This document shows positions 23,114-34,689 of a stretch of DNA of 64,000 nucleotides, piece by piece (the stretch's first letter is position 1; each line of letters opens with the position of its first letter). Both the position numbers and the translations under genes were made by a program. The notes beneath the pieces were generated by a model. It was not told the origin of the DNA, ran no database searches, and saw only the letters and a program-made list of their open reading frames with translations. The DNA comes from Cloeon dipterum (Eukaryota; Arthropoda; Insecta; Ephemeroptera; Baetidae), in the NCBI RefSeq assembly GCF_949628265.1, contig NC_088789.1:28327883-28391882 (forward strand), given 5' to 3'.

Positions 23114-23840
23114 TTATTCAGGCTCCTCTTTGATTTCCTGTTTGATCTTGAGTCCGTCTTCTATCCAAATCGGCTCTGGCATGGTCGTTATCGTTTCTTG
23201 GCACTCGTCATACAGTTCCCTAGTTAAAATGAAATTAAATATAATCCCTGAAATCGAATGAGAAAGCCGGAACTCACTTGTAGTCTGGTTTTGGCTTGAT
23301 CAGCATCAGCAAAATTGACCTCAGGGTTCCAATGCTCTGTCCAAGGTCCTGTCGAGAGGGAACGTAAACATAGGGCAGACCCTTTTGCTCGCACACTCCA
23401 GGAATGTGGCACATGATGTCGATTGGATTCACATCTCCAGCCAAAATCACGATTCTGGAATTAATATGAGTTCCATTGTAAGTACATGTATGTAGTTGAT
23501 TATTTTTATCGACATCTTACCCTCTCTCGTCTTTCCTGAGGCCTCTCTGAACTGCTTTCAGTCCAAACACCATGTTGGCTTTCTTGTCTTTTGAAGCTAA
23601 TAACATGAAATTCGAGTTAATTTTATCTCAAAACAACTGTTTCGCTGCGAGCACGTGGACGCAGGCAAGCGACAACTCACCTTTTTTTGCGAGTTTCAGC
23701 AGTTTCTTGGTCAGTTTTTTGCTCGCCATCGGCTTCGCGATTTTGTTGACGAATTTCAGCTTGTCGGTGTACGAAACTTCGCCTTCGACAATGCTGGCGT
23801 CACCATTTTCGGGTTCTAGTACTTTACTCTTCTTGCCCAT
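23114..23840 (-). CDS. NHP2: H/ACA ribonucleoprotein subunit NHP2
   Basis: Four exons on the minus strand (23681-23840, 23521-23596, 23278-23454, 23114-23219) give 172 residues, close to the family length of about 155. The product is an L7Ae-type RNA-binding protein. Visible marks are KPMASKKLTKKLLKLAKK, GIVILAGDVNPIDIMCHIP and the GLPYVYVPSRQDLG strand, all typical of NHP2 in the position expected. NHP2 binds H/ACA guide RNAs that direct pseudouridylation in the nucleolus. The C-terminal tail is acidic and longer than usual. An acceptor (TTGTTGTTCAG) just before the start codon implies a non-coding first exon upstream. The 5' end faces the ZAD gene. Confidence 0.92.
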
Positions 23841-24519
23841 GTTGACGTTTGTGATGATTCCGTCTTCAGACGCTGAACAACAACAACAACATGAAACGCT
23901 GATTGACTCCAAACAATGCGGCCAATGCGCTGAGACAATGCTGCCAACAAAATCGTACTATAAAAATGAATTTGTGCAGGCGAGTGGGATAATTTCAAAT
24001 TATTTTCACATTTTTCATTTTGATTTATTTATAAGTATTTTAAATAAAACATTTAGTCAGATATTATTTCACATTTTTTAAAGTTTTCAGCATGAATTTT
24101 AAATTTTCATCTATCTCTATATTATTTCACATTCTGAAAGGTTTCCAACACTGTTCTAAAAGTGAGCCTGGAGCCTGTCAACTGTACGGTCCATAGCTCC
24201 AAAATCCAAGCCAATAATTTTAGCCGAAGAATTTGTCTATTTAATTTTCAACACTTTGTCTCTAAAACCATCTCTAGTCGCGTATTCTCTTGCTGGTACT
24301 GGAACTGGAGGCTTTTCCGAAAGTGTTTCATAACAACTAGATAAGTTTGAATTGTGAAACCACACAATTTCGTAATGTATGTAAACAGTTTATGATTTAA
24401 CACGGTTGACAAAAATTAATAATTCCTGCGCCTTTTTTGATGCAGCTCCAAGACAGAAATGGCCAAGTTTTGATCGCGTTCTTGGTCAAAATATAGACGG
24501 AGACGAATTAAATAAGAAT
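23841..24519. promoter_or_regulatory. Divergent intergenic region, NHP2 / ZAD gene
   Basis: About 680 bases separate two divergent start codons. An intron acceptor close to the NHP2 ATG and a possible acceptor (TTTTTGATGCAG, about 24445) before the ZAD ATG suggest both genes have non-coding first exons here. No TATA box stands out. A shared promoter is inference. Confidence 0.4.
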
Positions 24520-27500
24520 ATGGCGACAGGCAACATTTTGGACTTGTGTCGGCTCTGCGGCACCGACACTTTAAGCATGAGCATTTTGAGGCACAACATC
24601 TTCGACGACGAGGGCCAGTTGAAGAAATTTGCTGAAAAGATCAGCAGTTGTTTGCCGGTTAATGTACGTATTCTAAATTACTGCTTCTTTCCCCGTAGCC
24701 TCATGCGTTAAAATTCAATCAGGTGGCTGAAGAGGATCCCTTGCCCAAAATAATGTGCGGCGAGTGTGCTTACAAACTGGACTTGCTCAGCGAGTTCCGA
24801 GAAAAATCGGCAAAAACCGAGTCTGCCCTGATGGTGCTTCTCAAGCAGGATATTAAACATGAAGTAAGGCTTGGTTTTTTAACCAATGATTTAAATAATC
24901 ATTTAAATTACCAGGCGTCCGATGTAGAGGAACAGACTGAAGTGAAGGAAGCGACTGAGACGGTGAATTTAAAGAGACAATCAAGCCGTAGATCCGTGAA
25001 AACGCGCCGCTACTTTGTCGACTCGGAATCTGAAGAGGACACTCAACAGAGTGATGATGATTTTCACTGCGACGACAACTACAGGGACGACGATGACGAA
25101 GATTCGGAAATAGCAGAGCCTGTGAAAAAGAAGGAAAGGAGATCTATGCCGACCAGGGCCAGCAAGAAGACTAACAACAAGAAAGCAGCCCTGGAAAAAG
25201 AAGAAATAACTGCTGAGTATGAACCTTTTTTTACTTTAAAAAATTCCAAAAATTAGGACCTCTTGAAATAAGTTCCCTTAAGTTGATGAGTATATAAATA
25301 TGTGTGAATTACCCAAGAAGCCAAAACTGTTTTTAAAAGACGTGAGGGAATTGTGACGGCGAGGCGTGATTGCAGGGAGTGCAGCTTGTGCGGACTGCAA
25401 GTGCCTGACATTGTTGCACATAAGCGAGAGCTGCACGCCCACCTGCTGAATTGTCCCAAGTGCCCTCAGGTGTGTGACTCGCAGCGAGCGCTAAACAAGC
25501 ACGTCCAAGAGCTTCACGCCTCCAATGAGCAGTTGCACAGCTTTTCAGTCGTCTGCACCAAGTGTCCGAAGCGGTTCACCAGCCGAACCGCCATGAACGC
25601 GCACGCCAGGCGGGTGCATGGCGGACAGCAGCGCAAGGAAATGAGTCTGCTGTGCAAATACTGCGGACGGGCTTTTTCCCGAAAGCAGTACCTGGTCGAC
25701 CACGAAAGGAAGCATAGAAACGAGAGGCCTTTCAAGTGCACCACCTGTGAAAAAGGGTTCTACTCCAAGGTGAGATCCGTTTTTAAACCTTTCAAACAGT
25801 TTAGGTGTGCTCCAAAATTAAACTGGTGATAAAATCCTTTTAATCAATCGATTCACCTAAAAATTGATTTCTTTATTTTTGAATTTTTATATTTTGCCAG
25901 GTGCTTAAATTAAAACAATCCAATTAATCGTAGAAAAAATGACTGAAGGTTTTGGAATTAATTCTTCGCACAATTTGACATCGAAAAACAGGTCCAGCGG
26001 ATTTTTCTGTGAACTGCGGCCACTGACAATGAGAGTGGGCGAAACTCGCGGGAATTTTGAAATTGGGGCGTGGTTTTCCGGGGAAATGAAGTAATGAGGC
26101 GTGACACCAGTCGCAAAAAGTGGGAAAATCTTAAAATTTAACGATTTTTTTCAGAATTAGAAGGAATTTTGGAATTGTGGGTATTTTTCCAGGAGAAATG
26201 ATAAAAGAATGCGTGGCCCATGTCAAAAAGAGCGGGAAAATCGTACATTTTGATGATTTTTCTCATAATTTGCCATTTTTTTGCGAAAGCCCTTGGTGTT
26301 CGTTGCCGCCAATAGATGACGCCAACGGTTTCTTTTGATTTAAAGGTTCTTCCGCTGTGATTTTAGACTCAATTCTGCTCTTATGCTTTCAGCCCTTGAA
26401 ATAATTTCCTTTGATGTGCTGGAAACCAAAATCGGTTCGACCAATCGCCATAGAAACGTGAAAAAAAACATTTTTCCAACGTTTCTACGGCGAATGGCTG
26501 GATTGATTTATGTTTTCAGCACGTGTAAAGAAATAATTCTAGATGCAGAATGCACAGCAGCAAGATTGAGTCTTAAATTACAGCAGAAGTTAATTAAAAT
26601 CTAAAGAAACCACTGGCGCCATCTATTGGTGGATTTGAATTTCGAAAACTAAGCTTACGCAACTGGTAATTCCAGGGAAATTTTAAATGGGGATGCAGTT
26701 CGCAGGAAATTAAAAAGAAGGCGTGGTACATGTCATGAAATCAACGAGGATGCGAAGTCCTTTTTAATTAATTAAAATAATTAAAGAACATGACATGAAG
26801 CTGATTGCTTTAGCAATTTTTTCGATTTTAAATTATAATAGTCCAAAAATTGCTTAATTTCATGATTCTGTTATTTAGTTTTAAATGAAAATTAATTTTT
26901 ACGATCTACAATACAATATTATTTTTAAAATTAAATTTAATTTAGTGTTCTAGTGCTTAAAAAAATACAAAATTTTCATTTTTCTGAATTATAAATAAAA
27001 AATCTGGCATTGTGTTGTTGTTTGTCAGGTTCTCCTGAAGAGCCATCTGCGGGTGCACACCGTTTCCGACTACAAGTTCGAGTGCGACCTGTGTCACATG
27101 CAGTTCACGACGCAGACGGGTTGCCGGGCGCACCGGAAGCGCCACTTTGAGGAGAACCGGCGTTTCGAGTGTTTGGCGTGCGGCTTGCGCTTCTTCAAGC
27201 GCGCCACCCTCGACTCGCACCAGGTCAGCAAACACACGCACATCAAGCCGTTCGAGTGCGCCATCTGCGCCAAACGCTTCCCCTGCAAGTACGATTTGCA
27301 GAAGCACATCGAGACTCACCTCAAGATCAAGTCGCAAGTGTGCGAGTTTTGCGGCGCTGCCTACTTCCGCTCGGACCATTTGCGCAGGCACAAAATGCTG
27401 CAGCACAAAGAACTCGTGCCGTCCTACAGGTGAATATACTTCTTCTATATTTTTCGTAATTGTTTTCTTGATGGTTTTATTTCAGCTGTGACATGTGCGG

Positions 27501-27600
27501 CCGAAGTTACACCGAAGAGAGATCCATGTTCAATCACAAACTGCGATACCACAAGCTTGGAGAGCTTAGTGCCAAACACGCTCTTTCGTCTAATCCCTAA
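24520..27600 (+). CDS. ZAD zinc-finger protein: common 5' exons plus terminal cassette A
   Basis: Common exons 24520-24663, 24723-24863 and 24915-25216 encode an N-terminal ZAD domain (CRLCG near residue 10 and CGEC near 60, the four zinc cysteines), then an acidic/basic linker rich in D/E and K/R. Cassette A (25340-25769, 27029-27429, 27486-27600) adds ten C2H2 fingers; the A form is 510 residues. ZAD proteins are arthropod transcription factors that dimerise through ZAD and bind DNA through fingers. The third exon ends after GA in phase 2, the same phase needed by the first exon of cassettes A, B and C. The intron at 25770-27028 carries a foldback and R3 repeats. The start ATG was chosen because ZAD follows it at once; an upstream in-frame extension to 24406 is possible. 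The specific gene is not recognised. Confidence 0.88.
26020..26260 (-). repeat. Repeat family R3 copy in ZAD-gene intron
   Basis: Reverse-orientation blocks ACTCGCGGGAATTTTGAAAT, GGGGCGTGGTTTTCCGGGG and GAGGCGTGACACCAGTCGC are followed by a second partial unit. A further fragment lies at 26680-26740. Confidence 0.65.
26309..26629. repeat. Foldback element with CTCF-like ends, 321 bp
   Basis: The two halves are reverse complements over most of their length. The left end reads CCAATAGATGACGCCAACGG and the right end, reversed, CCAATAGATGGCGCCAGTGG. Inner blocks GGTTTCTTT.GATTT, TTAGACTCAAT, TAATTTC.TT, GTGCTGAAAAC and GTAGAAACG also pair. No coding frame is supported. It sits in the cassette A intron. 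The right-end motif resembles the insect CTCF consensus (CC.. YAGATGGCGC); this is a motif match by eye only. Confidence 0.8.
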
Positions 27601-27890
27601 GTCCGTTAATTGGAATCTCGCCTAGGTACAATTCCCTGTGAGCGATGAAAATTGTTGCTTTAAGAAATATTCTGAGAAACAAGACTTATGGAGAGTCCCA
27701 GATCAGACTGTGTGATAGTTTCAAAATTTTCTGACTCAAGATAGACAGTAAAGTTTCTCAGATTTGAGGCTCTGGTGGGGAAAAACATGGGAATCTACAC
27801 CAAAAACGCTTATTTTATCATTAAGTAAACTTAAGCTTGAAAACATTTCCCCCTGAGGGATGGATAATCAATTCCAACCCCAATTTAGTA

Positions 27891-27896
27891 ATAAAT
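27891..27896 (+). terminator. Possible poly(A) signal of cassette A
   Basis: AATAAA lies about 290 bases after the cassette A stop and before the cassette B acceptor, as expected if A is an alternative terminal exon set. Confidence 0.5.
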
Positions 27897-28347
27897 AATT
27901 GAATGACCCTTTCAAACTTTGTGTCATCTAGAAAAGGAAAAAAAATGAATTTGAGTTATCAGACAACAACTTGTCCCATGAAGAAAAAATCTTGATAAAT
28001 ATGATTTTACGAGAATTTAAAAAATTACAAGATGTTGTCTCGTCAAGGTGTCTGCAAATTCCATCATGATTTGGCAAAAACTAATTAAAAATTTAAATTC
28101 CCGTGAGACGTGATACTTAAGTTCAGCCTCGTAATTGATTTTTTCCTAATTTCACGTACGGAAAAACTGCATTCTTTAATTCTCACTCAGAGTCCTAGTT
28201 AATACATTTTAAATAAATTTACCAAAAATTTGATTTTGCTCAAAGGGTGATTACCTTATTTTCATCTAAAACGTTTTGGCTTCTTTGGGAATCCCCATAA
28301 TCAATCAATCTTTCCTTAAAAGTAAACAAATATTTCCCCTTCTACAG

Positions 28348-30520
28348 GAAAGTAATGAAAGATGAAAGCCCGGCTACCAGCCTGGAAGGAAAGAGGCTCA
28401 AATCAAAATATCTGTGCAAAATCTGCAAAAAGGAATTTTCCAAGGAGCTAACGCTGCAGAAACACGAAAGTATGGAGCACACATTCCTGTGCGTGGCGTG
28501 CAACGTGCCGTTCATGTCCAGCCGAGACCGAGGGATACACAAATGCTTCTCCAGTTTCCAGGAAGATTACTCTCAGAACTCTAGAGGACGGAGAACGGCC
28601 CGGTCGAAGGTGCTGACGTGCGAGCAGTGCAAGAAAACGTATTCGTCTCACGCCAACTTCGTGCGACACGTCGCCGAGCCGCACACGCACCACTGCAAGG
28701 TTTGCAACATTTATTTCGCCACGCAAAGACAACGACTGGCCCACGGGTGCCGACCGGCGCCCCAGCCCGAAGGGACTCTCCCGGACGCCTCTACCAAATA
28801 TAAATACCAGTGCAGCAAGTGCGCCAAGGGGTTCGTCCAAGAGACCAACTACCTCGAGCACATTGCCAAAGCGCACGACAGCTTCTGCAAGACCTGCAAA
28901 CGGTACTTTATCTCCGCTCGAGACCGCATTGCACACTCGTGCCTCTACAAATGCCGCCATTGTGATTTTAGTGCGAAGTAATGCATTATTTATTTTTTGT
29001 ATGCCCATGGAGGGTTGAATGACCAATTTATTTCAGGACGCACACCAAACTGCAAGTGCACATCGAGAACATTCACGAGAATGGGATTGAGTTCGAGTGC
29101 GATATTTGCAAAGAAAAATTTCTGTCTAAACGAAGTCTCATCAGCCACATTGTCGCCAGCGGAATCGATCACAGGTATGACTAATTTTACTACGGTGCTT
29201 TAAATAATAAAATAGAAAAGTAACCAAGAGAAAATCTTGGAAAGTCAGCCTCTTGGACATGGAGTTTACAAAATTGAACCAAAAGATGCCTATTTAGACG
29301 GCAGAAAACTTGGAAGTTGCACACAATTTTTGGAATTTTTTTAATTTGGGTAATTTTAGAGTTTTGAGTATCTAAAAACGGCCTTTAATTACTTTTTTAA
29401 ATATAGGATGAAATGTTGCTCTTACAATTAGTGCGTGTAAGAGGCCTAGACACTCTCAGGATGGTGCAACCTTCCGTTTTTGAGATTCTGCGGTGAAAAA
29501 GGGGTATTTTTTTATCTAGGTAAATTTCGAGAAAATCAAAATTCTCGGTTGAATTTTACCCTATGAGCATGCTGGGGGTTACTCCTGAGGTCAGATAATC
29601 ATTTCAACAGATAAAAAAATCGAACCCTGGCGTCAGGGTAACCCTCAAGCGATCAATATCGATAATTGGCCACTTTAACAATGCCTGACGGGCTCAGTGA
29701 TTATTCAAATTTCAACGGCCAAGTCAAGATCTTTCAGAATATTTCAAACTCATCATTTTGAAGCCAACGGGGTGCTCAGGAAACACCCAAAATGGCTAAT
29801 TTTCAGCCCCTTTGATTTTAAAACCCATTTTTACAGTTTCATCGGCACGTACTGCAGTATTTGCAACTACGACTACCGCTCCATGTACAGCCTGAAGCTT
29901 CACATCCAGCGGGTGCACCAGGGCGTCTTTAAATGCACCGGCTGCAACACCAGTTTCGCCACAAAAGAAGAGCGCAAGGTCCACTACAAAGCGAACCACT
30001 CGCAGAAAAAGCAGGAGGTGCAGTGCCCCGAGTGCCCGAAAATCATCAGCAACATTCACAACCTCCAAATCCACATCAACATGGTGCACAGGAAACTTCG
30101 ACCGCACCTTTGTCAGGTGAAGAAATACTCCCTTTTCAATTTTGCAGGAAATTTTCTTTTTCAAGTCATTAATAATAATTTTTTCAGGTTTGTGGAAAGT
30201 CGTACCCGTGCAAATCGTCTCTGCAATTCCACATGACGATGCACACCGGCGAGAAGAAGCATGTTTGCAATGTGTGCGGACACGCGTTCGCTCGAATCGA
30301 GAACCTGAAGCAGCACATGCGGATCCACAACAATGTGAAGCCATTCTTGTGCGACTTCTGTCCGCAAAAGTTCCGTCAAGCCGGATCTCTGAAGATCCAT
30401 CGCAGGATTCACACAGGGGAAACGCCCTATCACTGTCACTTGTGCCCAAAGAAATATATCTCCAATGGATTGTTGAAAAACCACCTGAAATACCATCCTG
30501 TCGACAGAGATATCGAATAA
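28348..30520 (+). CDS. Alternative zinc-finger cassette B of the ZAD locus
   Basis: Exons 28348-28977, 29037-29174, 29837-30116 and 30188-30520 all join in phase and encode about 15 zinc fingers; joined to the common ZAD exons the product would be 655 residues. The first exon follows a good acceptor (CCCTTCTACAG) and opens with one base completing a codon, so it needs an upstream exon ending in phase 2, exactly what 25216 offers (GA|G = Glu). Three fingers are C2HC with C-x2-C-x12-H-x-C spacing, each directly behind a normal C2H2 finger. The last three fingers have TGEK-type linkers. A start at the ATG at 28355 as a separate gene is possible but would lack ZAD. The third intron (29175-29836) carries an R2 copy. 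Confidence 0.8.
29500..29810 (+). repeat. Repeat family R2, single arm in cassette B intron
   Basis: The copy carries GAACCCTGGCGTCAGGGTAA, CCACTTTAACAATGCCTGAC, CTTTCAGAATATTTC and GGTGCTCAGGAAACAC blocks in the same order as 5840-6200. It ends about 25 bases before the exon at 29837. Confidence 0.75.
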
Positions 30521-30521
30521 A
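30516..30521 (+). terminator. Possible poly(A) signal overlapping the cassette B stop
   Basis: AATAAA overlaps the TAA stop of cassette B. Only about 107 bases separate this stop from the first base of cassette C. Whether this hexamer is used cannot be told from sequence. Confidence 0.35.
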
Positions 30522-30627
30522 AAAGATCAATTGAAAATTCGCAATTTGTTTTTGATAATTCCAGTTTGGCTTCTTGGGTTTTGATATTATTTTACCTTAT
30601 TATTTGTAACAATTCCTATTTTTTCAG

Positions 30628-31868
30628 ATTTACGTGGCCGTGGAAAGGTGTAAAACTCCCTTGCGGTCGGCGCAAAAAGAAGCCTATACAACCCGAGCCA
30701 CAGTCTGACGATGATCTCATGAAAATTGAAGTCATAGACGTGCGCTCACTGCCAGACTTCTCGGCAGAACCAGCTCTCCCGCCAGAAAATGTGACCGTCG
30801 AGGAATTCAACAACCCCCTAACTGCGCGAGCCGACTTCACGTGTTCCCAGTGCCACATCAAGTTCAAAAACTACGGCTCGTACACAAATCACTCGAAGAA
30901 ACCTCACACATACCACTGCAAGTGGTGCAACAGGAATTTCGTCAACGCTCGAGGGGAGCACGCGTGCGCCTTCAAGTGCACCAAGTGCGAATTTCGGTAT
31001 TTCAAGACCAACGGCGCCCTGAGGAGTCACACCAGGTGGTTCCACACGGGAGACGAGTTTCTCTGCCACGACTGCGGAGCCAAATGCCCAACCAAATTGA
31101 GCATGCGCACTCACTACAAGAAGGTTCACATCAAAAAGCAGAGTGAAGACCAAAGGTAGGCCTTTGAATTCTCATTCACAGCCCTAACAATTTGCGATTT
31201 TCTTTTCCAGTTACAAGACTTGGTGCTCCGAGTGTCAGCGGAGTTTTTCCTCTACCTTTTCCCTGATGAAACACAAACAACGAAAGCACGAGGGCAAGAT
31301 TCTCTGCTCCGTCTGCCCGGAGGCCTTTGCCTCGAAAGAGGAGCGCAGGGAGCACGTGAAGCTGGTGCACCCGTCGACCAGAGAGAAGCAGCTGTTTGAC
31401 TGTCCAGAGTGCGGCAAGAAATTGAGTTCCAGAGCCATGATGCAGGTTCACGTCGACAACATCCACAAGAAACTTAAACCCCACCTCTGTCAGGTAATTT
31501 ATTTCTCAATTTATTTTTATTTCTTGAAGATCATTAAATTAATCTTTCAGGTTTGTGGAAAAGCATTTGCGGTTGTGTCTCACCTCAAATTGCACATGAT
31601 GATGCACACCGGAGAAAAGAAGCATGTTTGCAAAGTGTGCGGGCACGCGTTCGCCCGCATCGAAAATCTAACTCAGCACAAGAGGATCCACGAAGACTTG
31701 AAGCCTTTCCTCTGCGACTTCTGCCCCATGAAGTTCCGGCAGCAGAGCTCGTTGAAGAGCCACAGGCGCATTCACACAGGAGAAACGCCGTACAAGTGCC
31801 AATTGTGCCCTTCCAGCTTCCGAAGCAAACAGCAGCTCGATAACCATGTCAAGTTCCATCCATCTTAA
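30628..31868 (+). CDS. Alternative zinc-finger cassette C of the ZAD locus
   Basis: Exons 30628-31155, 31211-31493 and 31551-31868 join in phase; with the common exons the product would be 571 residues. Its first exon opens in phase 2 after TTTTTTCAG (GA|A = Glu), like A and B. It begins with a basic, proline-rich linker and has no in-frame ATG for about 90 bases, so it is unlikely to start a gene alone. It encodes about ten zinc fingers, including one short C2HC finger. Cassette C is a tandem paralogue of B: the last intron falls at the same place (before VCGK), and the final three fingers share most residues, such as HVC.VCGHAFARIENL and KPFLCDFCP.KFRQ. The stop is followed by AT-rich DNA. 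Confidence 0.82.
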
Positions 31869-32200: not shown

Positions 32201-34689
32201 TCACACAGTCCGGAACTGGGGCTGGTTTTCTTCGTGCTGTTCGCACAGCTGCTCGATCTGCATGTGCGAGGCGCCTTTAGTCTCCGGAATCCAGAGGCCT
32301 GACGTGACAGAGCCGAGGGCGCAAAACGCGGCGTAGAGGGCGAGAACGGCCTCCATGCCGCCCAGCAAGTGTTCCAGGTCGAAAAAGGTCTTGGTGACCA
32401 AGAAGGCGACGACCCAGCTGAAGGAGCCGGTGGCCGAGGTCGCCACCGACCGGTGTTGCTGGGCCACTAGCTCCCCAAGGAGCAGCCCGGACACGGGTCC
32501 CAGTCCGACCGAGTTGGCCACGATGAACAGGCTGAGGAACAGCAGCGGCCACACTCCGCCTGGCCCGAAGGCCATGCCCAGCAGGGCGAACGCCATCACA
32601 GCCTGTGGGATGAGAGAGATATGGCCATTATTAAATTTTTTTAAACTTAATTTTAAGAGTGGCCAGCAATTAAACAACATATTGTTGCTTAAAAATCTCA
32701 TTGAAAGCGTAAAATGTTATGATTTTCCCGCGCATTGCATCACATGCCACGCCTTATGATTTTTACAGGAGACCACGCCCCCATTTGAACGATCCTGCGG
32801 GTTTTCAGTAAAAAATGTCTAATTTAACGATTTTCTTGCACTTTGCAACGGGTGCCACGCCTCCTTTATGAAGCTTTACAGTAAACCACACCCCCATTTC
32901 AAAATTGCCTTATCTTCTAAAAAACAATACTGGATTTTTCAATTTTCCCGCGCTTTCTGTCACATATGCCACGCCTTGTCTGTAAATTTGCCCTGTTAAA
33001 AAATATCCGCGAATTTATTATGAATTCTCTCACTGCATTCTACGATGAACCACGCCCCCTTTTCTAAATTCCCGCGAGTTTACGCCCTTTTCAAGTGGTC
33101 GCTTTTCACAGAGAGAATCAGGTTTTCTCCAATTTCCAATAAGTTGCAACTTTTAGTCGTTCAGTTTTCCATCGATCTCAAGTCTCACAATCAGTCTCAA
33201 CATCCCCCCCCCCTTCTATAGAACGGCGTTGCCACACCTTGAACGATGTGTCAACGCCGCGCCATAAGAAATCATGCATTGCAGTGGGAGGGGGTGTCAA
33301 TGTAGAGCTACGCCCGGTGTTGCCACATTGTACCGAAGGGTTTCGCAAAAAGCTCCAGACGAAAAATCAACCTTAATTAATTATCTACCTGCGAGGAGAT
33401 GAGCAGCAGCCTCCGTCCGACAAAGTCGAGCAGCCCGCACGCGGCCAGGGTTGCCACCCACTGCACGGTGCCGACGACCACCGTGGCTGCCTCGGCGCTG
33501 ACGGTCGAGTGCGTCGCGGACATGATTGGCTCCAAATAAGCCACGATGGCCCGGATTCCGCACAGACGGCTGCTGGTGCGCACCATGCCCACCAGGAGGA
33601 TCGGTTTCACGGCCGCTTTCAGGGCTTGAAACCTGCCCTTGAGGCTGCTGGCCGTCGGCTGCAGGTGGAGCAGTTCAGACAGCTCGGACTGCACGTCGAA
33701 ATTGTCGCCTCTCAGCCGCTTCAGGGCTTCGTGGCTCTCGTGCAGTTTTTTCTTGGACGCCAGGTAGCACGGGGACTCGGGCACTGCGAACGGCAGGACG
33801 ATGCCTGGAAGCGTCACGGCTACTCCGAACCAAGCCTGCAGAAATATTGATGAAATTTAAAAATAATTCGCGCTGATTAAAAATTTTATACCAAGTGTCT
33901 CCACGAATCGAGAAATAGACTAGCAACGTAGCAGGCCAGGGTGCCAACGTTGAACATGAGGACCGGCACGCAGCCGAGAGCCCCTCTGTGCGAAGGGTGG
34001 GCGATCTCGCTGACGTACAGCTGCACCGAGTCCCCGATAATTCCCAAACACACGCCAAAGAGCTGTCAAAAATTATTTTAATAAAACCGAAACAATTTCC
34101 AAACAAAAGTACTCACCAGGTGGGTCAGTAAAATAGGCCAGGGTGCGTTTGCCGTAGCGAGAATGGCCCAGGAAAGGGCGAGAGGAATCGAGGAGAGCCA
34201 GATGGTGGTCCTGCGGCCCTTGGACAGCAACGGCCCCGCGAGAGCTGCCCCGAAGAGGGCTCCCAGCATCAGCAGACTAGCGACCCACGAGAGTGTGTCT
34301 TCGGTCAGGACCAGACCCTCCATCGGGCTTTTCAGCAGCGGCAGCGCCGGCGTGATGAAGCCCAAACTCGCACCGCTCGCCAAACACGACCAGCTTCCCA
34401 GAGCCGCAGCCATCACCTGACAATTGCAATTTACTCCGCTTAATAAAGTAGAGCGTTATACAGGCCAAAAGTTAAGCTAATAAATTAAAACAAATCATCT
34501 GCTTACTCCTCGCCACAAGGATGGCTTGGTTTCCTTCACCAACTGCTCTTCACTGGAGGCTGGAGAGGTGTTCCGTTGCTGCTGACAGGAGGGCTGTTGC
34601 CAGAATTTCGCCCCTTTCGCTGATCCATCTAGGATATCCTCCGAGTTCGGGCCAGAAATTTGCAGATTTTGTGTGTAAAATACGCTCAT
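32201..34689 (-). CDS. SLC2-type MFS sugar transporter (facilitated trehalose transporter-like)
   Basis: Five exons (34507-34689, 34117-34416, 33892-34062, 33389-33835, 32201-32602), all phase 0, give 500 residues with 12 predicted hydrophobic segments. Family marks: GRRTTIW after helix 2, VPESPCYL before the central loop, a long charged central loop, DFVGRR after helix 8, and PETKG after helix 12. These place it with insect Tret1-like sugar porters at the plasma membrane. The odd point is helix 7, where the usual QQLSGIN reads SRLCGIR. The glutamines and asparagine that contact sugar in GLUT-type structures are replaced, so substrate or activity may differ. Intron 4 (32603-33388) holds an R3 repeat. 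An acceptor just before the ATG suggests a non-coding first exon from the palindromic promoter region. Confidence 0.9.
32715..33115 (+). repeat. Repeat family R3 copy in transporter intron 4
   Basis: Several R3 units follow each other, with CACATGCCACGCCTTATGAT, GACCACGCCCCCATTTGAAC, GGTGCCACGCCTCC and GCGAGTTTACGCCC blocks. A small hairpin (GGCGTTG.CACA facing TGTGTCAACGCC) lies just beyond at about 33223-33256. Confidence 0.7.

Follow-up and report, generated by a model that had tools for sequence, protein, structure and literature searches.

ZAD gene and its zinc finger cassettes

The window analyzed here is a 64,000-nucleotide stretch of the Cloeon dipterum (Ephemeroptera) genome (contig NC_088789.1, positions 28,327,883 to 28,391,882). 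Its plus strand carries a gene that begins with three exons encoding a ZAD, a pairing domain, and a charged linker (positions 24520 to 25216 of the window); behind them we rebuilt from the sequence three complete C2H2 zinc finger cassettes, here called A, B, and C. We postulate that this is probably one ZAD gene with alternative terminal finger cassettes, laid out like lola and mod(mdg4) of Drosophila. The stronger evidence lies outside the window, in two further ZAD genes of the same genome, T1 and T2.

The first ZAD exon (24520 to 24663) starts with the ATG at 24520 and contains the first zinc-binding CxxC motif (CRLC). The second (24723 to 24863) contains the other (CGEC), completing the four zinc-binding cysteines, and ends in phase 0. 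The linker exon, which is the last common exon (24915 to 25216), encodes acidic and basic residues and ends in two extra bases, GA (exon end GCTGA, intron start gtatga). Against the Pfam zf-AD model (PF07776; cut-off, 28 bits), the spliced ZAD-A protein scored 43.5 bits, and T1 and T2 scored 48.3 and 47.2 bits. There were zf-C2H2 matches in all three cassettes, and the window gene is, judged by sequence, a member of the ZAD-C2H2 family.

Cassette A consists of exons at 25340 to 25769, 27029 to 27429, and 27486 to 27600, with a stop codon at 27598 to 27600 and an AATAAA at 27890. An alternative acceptor for its first exon, at 25376, has the same phase as that at 25340 and a lower score. Cassette B has four exons (28348 to 28977, 29037 to 29174, 29837 to 30116, and 30188 to 30520), and an AATAAA at 30516 overlaps its stop codon (30518 to 30520). 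Cassette C has three (30628 to 31155, 31211 to 31493, and 31551 to 31868), the last ending in a stop codon at 31866 to 31868. All 10 modeled donors are GT and all 12 acceptors are AG, and the spliced frames are open to the stop, predicting proteins of 510 (ZAD-A), 655 (ZAD-B), and 571 (ZAD-C) residues, in which motif counts give about 10, 12, and 11 fingers. These open frames speak against the cassettes being pseudogene copies.

The acceptors at 25340, 28348, and 30628 all end in AG and need two bases from upstream, exactly the number that the third ZAD exon leaves. The initial annotation had described one set of ZAD exons, three complete finger blocks, and this phase match, and our exon reconstruction confirmed each of them. 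It had also drawn attention to the Glu codon at every junction (GAA, GAG, and GAA), which was read correctly but has no evidential value, since GA plus a purine always encodes Glu and most exons begin with one (G or A after 46 of 51 acceptors in the arrays described below). By an approximate score based on general base preferences, A has a weak acceptor (0.1 bits, aaaag), and those of B and C score 7.7 and 8.5 bits.

Paralogous ZAD genes followed by finger arrays

When the same genome (190.1 Mb in 10 contigs) was searched with the common exons, the best ZAD matches outside the window were T1 and T2, which lie on the contig of the window gene, hereafter C4, 26 Mb away. T1 occupies C4:2026415-2049847 on the plus strand, with ZAD exons at 2026415-2026549, 2026609-2026746, and 2026833-2027155; T2, also on the plus strand, occupies C4:2144524-2216481, with ZAD exons at 2144524-2144664, 2145692-2145829, and 2145888-2146207. 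Over ZAD exons 1 and 2, the window gene is identical to T1 at 55 of 91 residues and to T2 at 54 of 92, and T1 and T2 are identical at 57 of 91. Other ZAD matches with E values below 1e-3 reached at most 43% identity, and weaker short pieces reached up to 51%. Fourfold silent sites matched poorly (3/18 between the window gene and T1, 5/16 between the window gene and T2, and 11/25 between T1 and T2), and the copies are therefore old.

The three genes have a common exon plan: two exons ending in phase 0 and then a charged linker exon with a phase 2 donor, of 323 nucleotides in T1, 320 in T2, and 302 in the window gene. The linker donors of T1 and T2 leave GG, so that every junction codon there would encode Gly. 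The intron inside the ZAD is not special to these genes, as other ZADs of the genome also match as two pieces.

We detected 14 finger open reading frames (ORFs) behind T1 (2027637-2049847) and 38 behind T2 (2147118-2216481), counting open plus-strand frames of at least 90 residues with at least three fingers; the ORFs were chosen for being open, which means that broken cassettes are missed and that openness proves nothing for the arrays. They encode from 3 to 23 fingers by motif, and most look like single exons running to a stop. For a two-exon cassette formed by T1_2047951 and T1_2049428, a phase 0 donor candidate exists; for T2_2214300 and T2_2216050, none was found. The minus strand of T1 and of the first 20 kb of T2 has only four short ORFs, antisense to cassettes, and all finger matches listed by the genome searches within both array intervals are on the plus strand. 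Searched locally with the three ZADs, neither array stretch gave a further ZAD exon (strongest stray match, E value of 0.054). The 89 kb between the two stretches (C4:2054001-2143000) were covered by the genome searches only, and none of the ZAD or finger matches listed falls there. Poly(A)-signal words occur within 300 nucleotides of the stop in 11 of 14 T1 and 34 of 38 T2 ORFs, figures that have no control and were given no weight. A cysteine/histidine count was circular and was not used.

For each ORF, the candidate acceptors were the AGs that follow the in-frame stop upstream and come before the first finger, and we took the one with the best score. This acceptor needs two bases in 11 of 14 T1 ORFs and 34 of 38 T2 ORFs (45/52 in total), and in 6 of 7 and 26 of 28, respectively, when only clear winners are counted. 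Acceptors scoring at least 4 and needing two, one, or no bases occur in 23, 2, and 2 of the 52 leaders, and the AGs that did not score best are in phase 2 in 37/108 cases in T1 and 77/314 in T2 (114/422 in total). As controls, we used finger exons from 17 other loci of the same genome, with duplicates dropped, of which 6/15 had a two-base acceptor. The array count exceeds an expectation of 1/3 (P = 3e-15), the control rate (P = 5e-12), and the controls themselves by Fisher's test (P = 0.0007), values that overstate independence, as the cassettes are related by descent, and that in the control comparisons depend on a small set.

Of the 52 array ORFs, 27 lack an ATG ahead of the first finger, among them the T2 ORF at 2148592-2151552, with 986 residues and 23 fingers by motif. 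Cassettes that share a phase but have no start codon require something upstream to be joined to, and we found nothing that fits other than the ZAD exons. A codon-usage test was positive for 33 of 42 scorable array leaders. The T1 and T2 arrays are more striking objects than the three-cassette window gene.

Cassette relationships and finger diversity

The ten strongest genome matches to cassette A outside its own exons are all T2 cassettes (30 to 37% identity), and its best partner among the 55 cassettes of the three genes is a T1 cassette. B and C are tandem copies, 47% identical over 331 residues and 69% identical in the last exon, with the same last intron. Through A and the ZAD, these resemblances link the window gene to T1 and T2; B and C seem to have been added to it, with the same phase of entry.

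The 55 cassettes contain 487 regularly spaced fingers with 462 distinct sets of four contact residues, the contact positions being the usual ones of C2H2 fingers; 17 of the sets occur in more than one cassette. When seven close T2 cassettes (2195165-2208549) were compared pairwise, residues differed in 510 of 880 compared pairs at contact positions, 1176 of 2913 at other finger positions, and 1282 of 2652 outside fingers; these pairs are not independent. dN was below dS in 21 of 21 pairs of these seven, in some only just (0.21 versus 0.22). This pattern fits cassettes that are kept intact yet pushed to differ in DNA target.

The search with cassette A also gave at least 13 scattered matches at C4:29.2-32.5 Mb, with long open frames (386 to 480 residues; one with internal stops), which represent another finger-gene expansion.

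Alternative cassettes or separate genes

Within the window alone, alternative cassettes appear likely but unproven. One alternative hypothesis is that the locus holds adjacent genes, the ZAD exons and A forming one, and B and C being ordinary ZAD-less finger genes with their own start codons. In-frame ATGs are indeed present at 28355, seven bases into B exon 1 and in fair context, and at 30719 in C, 5' of the first finger and in poor context (C at -3). The latter overturns the statement in the initial annotation that C has no usable ATG. Its observation that C starts 107 bases after the stop of B was correct, and so short a spacing argues against separate genes. Its appeal to the shared phase held in part: the match is real, but alone it is near chance, with 4 of the 7 other acceptors in cassettes A to C also in phase 2 and a probability of about 0.33 that both further matches arose by luck.

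The codon-usage test was mixed in the window, being positive for the leader of A, mildly positive for C, and slightly negative for the first 20 codons of B (-0.06 bits per codon), which carry no coding signal. The part of C before its ATG has only a moderate signal, and 423 of 4532 open noncoding stretches score as high. Even so, C exon 1 begins about 90 bases 5' of its ATG, at a strong acceptor, and the coding score rises there from -1.19 to 0.02 bits per codon, which speaks against a C gene of its own. With simple patterns, we found no TATA or Inr match in the gap between A and B, where there is one weak candidate start exon (28001 to 28047), and no candidate start exon, TATA, or Inr match in the gap between B and C.

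These ATGs, the chance of a phase match by luck, and the coding scores of B and C weigh against a single gene, as do several observations from outside the window. A ten-sequence ZAD tree did not resolve a grouping of the window gene, T1, and T2 (support, 31/27), and because of this our case for their kinship is sequence identity and the shared exon plan. In 7 of the 52 array ORFs, the best acceptor has a phase other than 2. Array ORFs, as long single exons, are favored in genome searches, and the match between A and the arrays may partly reflect length. In the genome search C, its resemblance to B aside, was closer to finger genes at large than to array cassettes; its lesser likeness to the arrays than that of A, and the tandem relation of B and C, favor adjacent genes. 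Set against the hypothesis of adjacent genes are the paralogues of the same exon plan, which carry dozens of finger ORFs, over half of them with no ATG before the first finger (27/52), and overall we regard it as unlikely.

A second alternative is that the same proteins are joined in trans, with separate promoters driving B and C, or the array cassettes, and their transcripts spliced to independently made ZAD transcripts. For mod(mdg4), trans-splicing is reported to be the sole source of the isoforms (PMC12692577), and an older paper reports that at least 18 are so made (PMC4528330). In both lola and mod(mdg4), the last common intron contains a U1-binding sequence (PMC10645366). The last common introns of T1 and T2 have in common a 27-nucleotide block, although the fourfold sites of the two genes match at only 11 of 25; among 200 shuffles, only 2 score as high. 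The shared stretch, at C4:2027387-2027442 in T1 and C4:2146315-2146377 in T2, consists of TCTTGTATGCAG then ATTAAAGATC. In the common phase, the block encodes 7 to 9 residues and then a stop; it may act in splicing or be a short terminal exon without fingers. It was not found in the window gene, and this, the absence of promoter signs by simple patterns in the two window gaps, and the position of the cassettes downstream of the ZAD exons on the same strand, for which cis-splicing suffices, make joining in trans a decidedly improbable account.

The 11-mer CTTGTATGCAG occurs 61 times in the genome, compared with 12 for its reversed control, and with so many occurrences it was dropped as a diagnostic by itself.

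It is very doubtful that cassettes are chained, with A exons 1 and 2 spliced on to B or C in one long protein: such forms are open (932 residues with B and 848 with C), as is a form joining B exon 1 to C, but A ends in an exon of its own that has a fair acceptor (4.9 bits) and a stop, and most T1 and T2 finger ORFs, as apparent single exons running to a stop, are unable to chain.

We therefore return to a single ZAD gene with alternative terminal cassettes. The initial annotation had proposed this likeness to lola and mod(mdg4), and it is supported mainly from outside the window, because the nearest ZAD paralogues carry finger arrays (14 and 38 ORFs) in which 45 of the 52 best acceptors agree in phase; where the window gene is concerned, we infer it. 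In the proposed mechanism, the three common exons would supply the ZAD and the charged linker, and the donor at 25217 would be joined to one of the acceptors at 25340, 28348, and 30628. Each cassette would bring its own stop and presumably its own 3' end. The outcome would be three proteins with one pairing domain and about 10, 12, or 11 fingers for different DNA. Since one ZAD is common to all of them, the isoforms could also pair with each other. Counting T1 and T2, this genome would have at least three such genes.

Comparison with known systems

The window gene resembles lola and mod(mdg4) in having common N-terminal dimerization exons and many alternative C-terminal finger ends. The ends of lola and mod(mdg4) have one or two fingers each, whereas the cassettes here have 3 to 23 and were found on one strand only. 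The common exons also differ in encoding a ZAD rather than a BTB domain. There is no BTB among the Pfam matches of the window gene and none near the window, T1, or T2 among the matches listed; the layout is like that of lola and mod(mdg4), but the window gene is not a member of that BTB family. In those genes, common BTB exons are joined to alternative ends, giving more than 30 isoforms of mod(mdg4) and at least 20 of lola (PMC4528330).

Elsewhere in the genome, on the minus strand of contig C3 (33106627-33129020), a BTB match is followed by three finger matches on the same strand, a candidate lola-like gene.

Like the ZAD-C2H2 proteins Pita, ZIPIC, Zw5, Grauzone, and Kipferl, the predicted proteins have an N-terminal ZAD with two CxxC motifs and a C2H2 cluster. 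To our knowledge, known members of this family have one finger cluster per gene; here, unlike in those proteins, one ZAD precedes 3, 14, or 38 finger blocks. The nearest known case is cucoid of culicine mosquitoes, a ZAD-C2H2 gene whose transcripts vary in their 3' ends (PMC9810180). Its shorter isoforms lose the last finger or fingers of one cluster, whereas whole clusters would be exchanged here. Among the papers listed by our literature searches, which covered few subscription papers, we found no ZAD gene of this layout.

Splicing, pairing, and different DNA targets are what we infer from the observations above. By sequence, the PDB relatives of the ZAD are weak (Grauzone, E value of 0.081; CG2712, E value of 0.098). 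The ZADs of Pita, ZIPIC, and Zw5 form only stable homodimers (PMC5509000), and isoforms of the same gene, which have one ZAD in common, should be able to pair, given the preference of a ZAD for its own kind. We lean toward the view that some fifty ZAD transcription factors are made from three genes by alternative terminal splicing and that isoforms of one gene could form hundreds of heterodimers. Such heterodimers could bridge or recognize different pairs of DNA sites.

The usual view is that arthropods enlarged their set of finger proteins by means of many separate ZAD genes. If our reading is correct, one lineage has also enlarged it by adding cassettes behind a single ZAD, which would tie all isoforms to the same pairing domain and make mixed dimers possible. 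It would be a splicing-based counterpart of the vertebrate KRAB finger expansions and a second occurrence of the lola and mod(mdg4) layout, on an unrelated domain. These genes would offer a natural test of the joint evolution of a shared dimerization domain and the DNA-binding ends exchanged behind it. In such arrays, annotation pipelines might mistake the cassettes for dozens of separate genes that lack start codons.

Neighboring genes and other finger loci

Trains of finger matches also occur on contig C5, at 29261357-29300253 on the plus strand and 28837264-28863505 on the minus strand, with no ZAD or BTB nearby among the matches listed. In the window, the ZAD gene has a minus-strand neighbor on each side. 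The start of a small basic protein (23628 to 23957), which gave no Pfam match and which we take to resemble NHP2, lies head to head with it, and the end of a sugar-transporter gene (32201 to 32716; PF00083 match) lies tail to tail with it.

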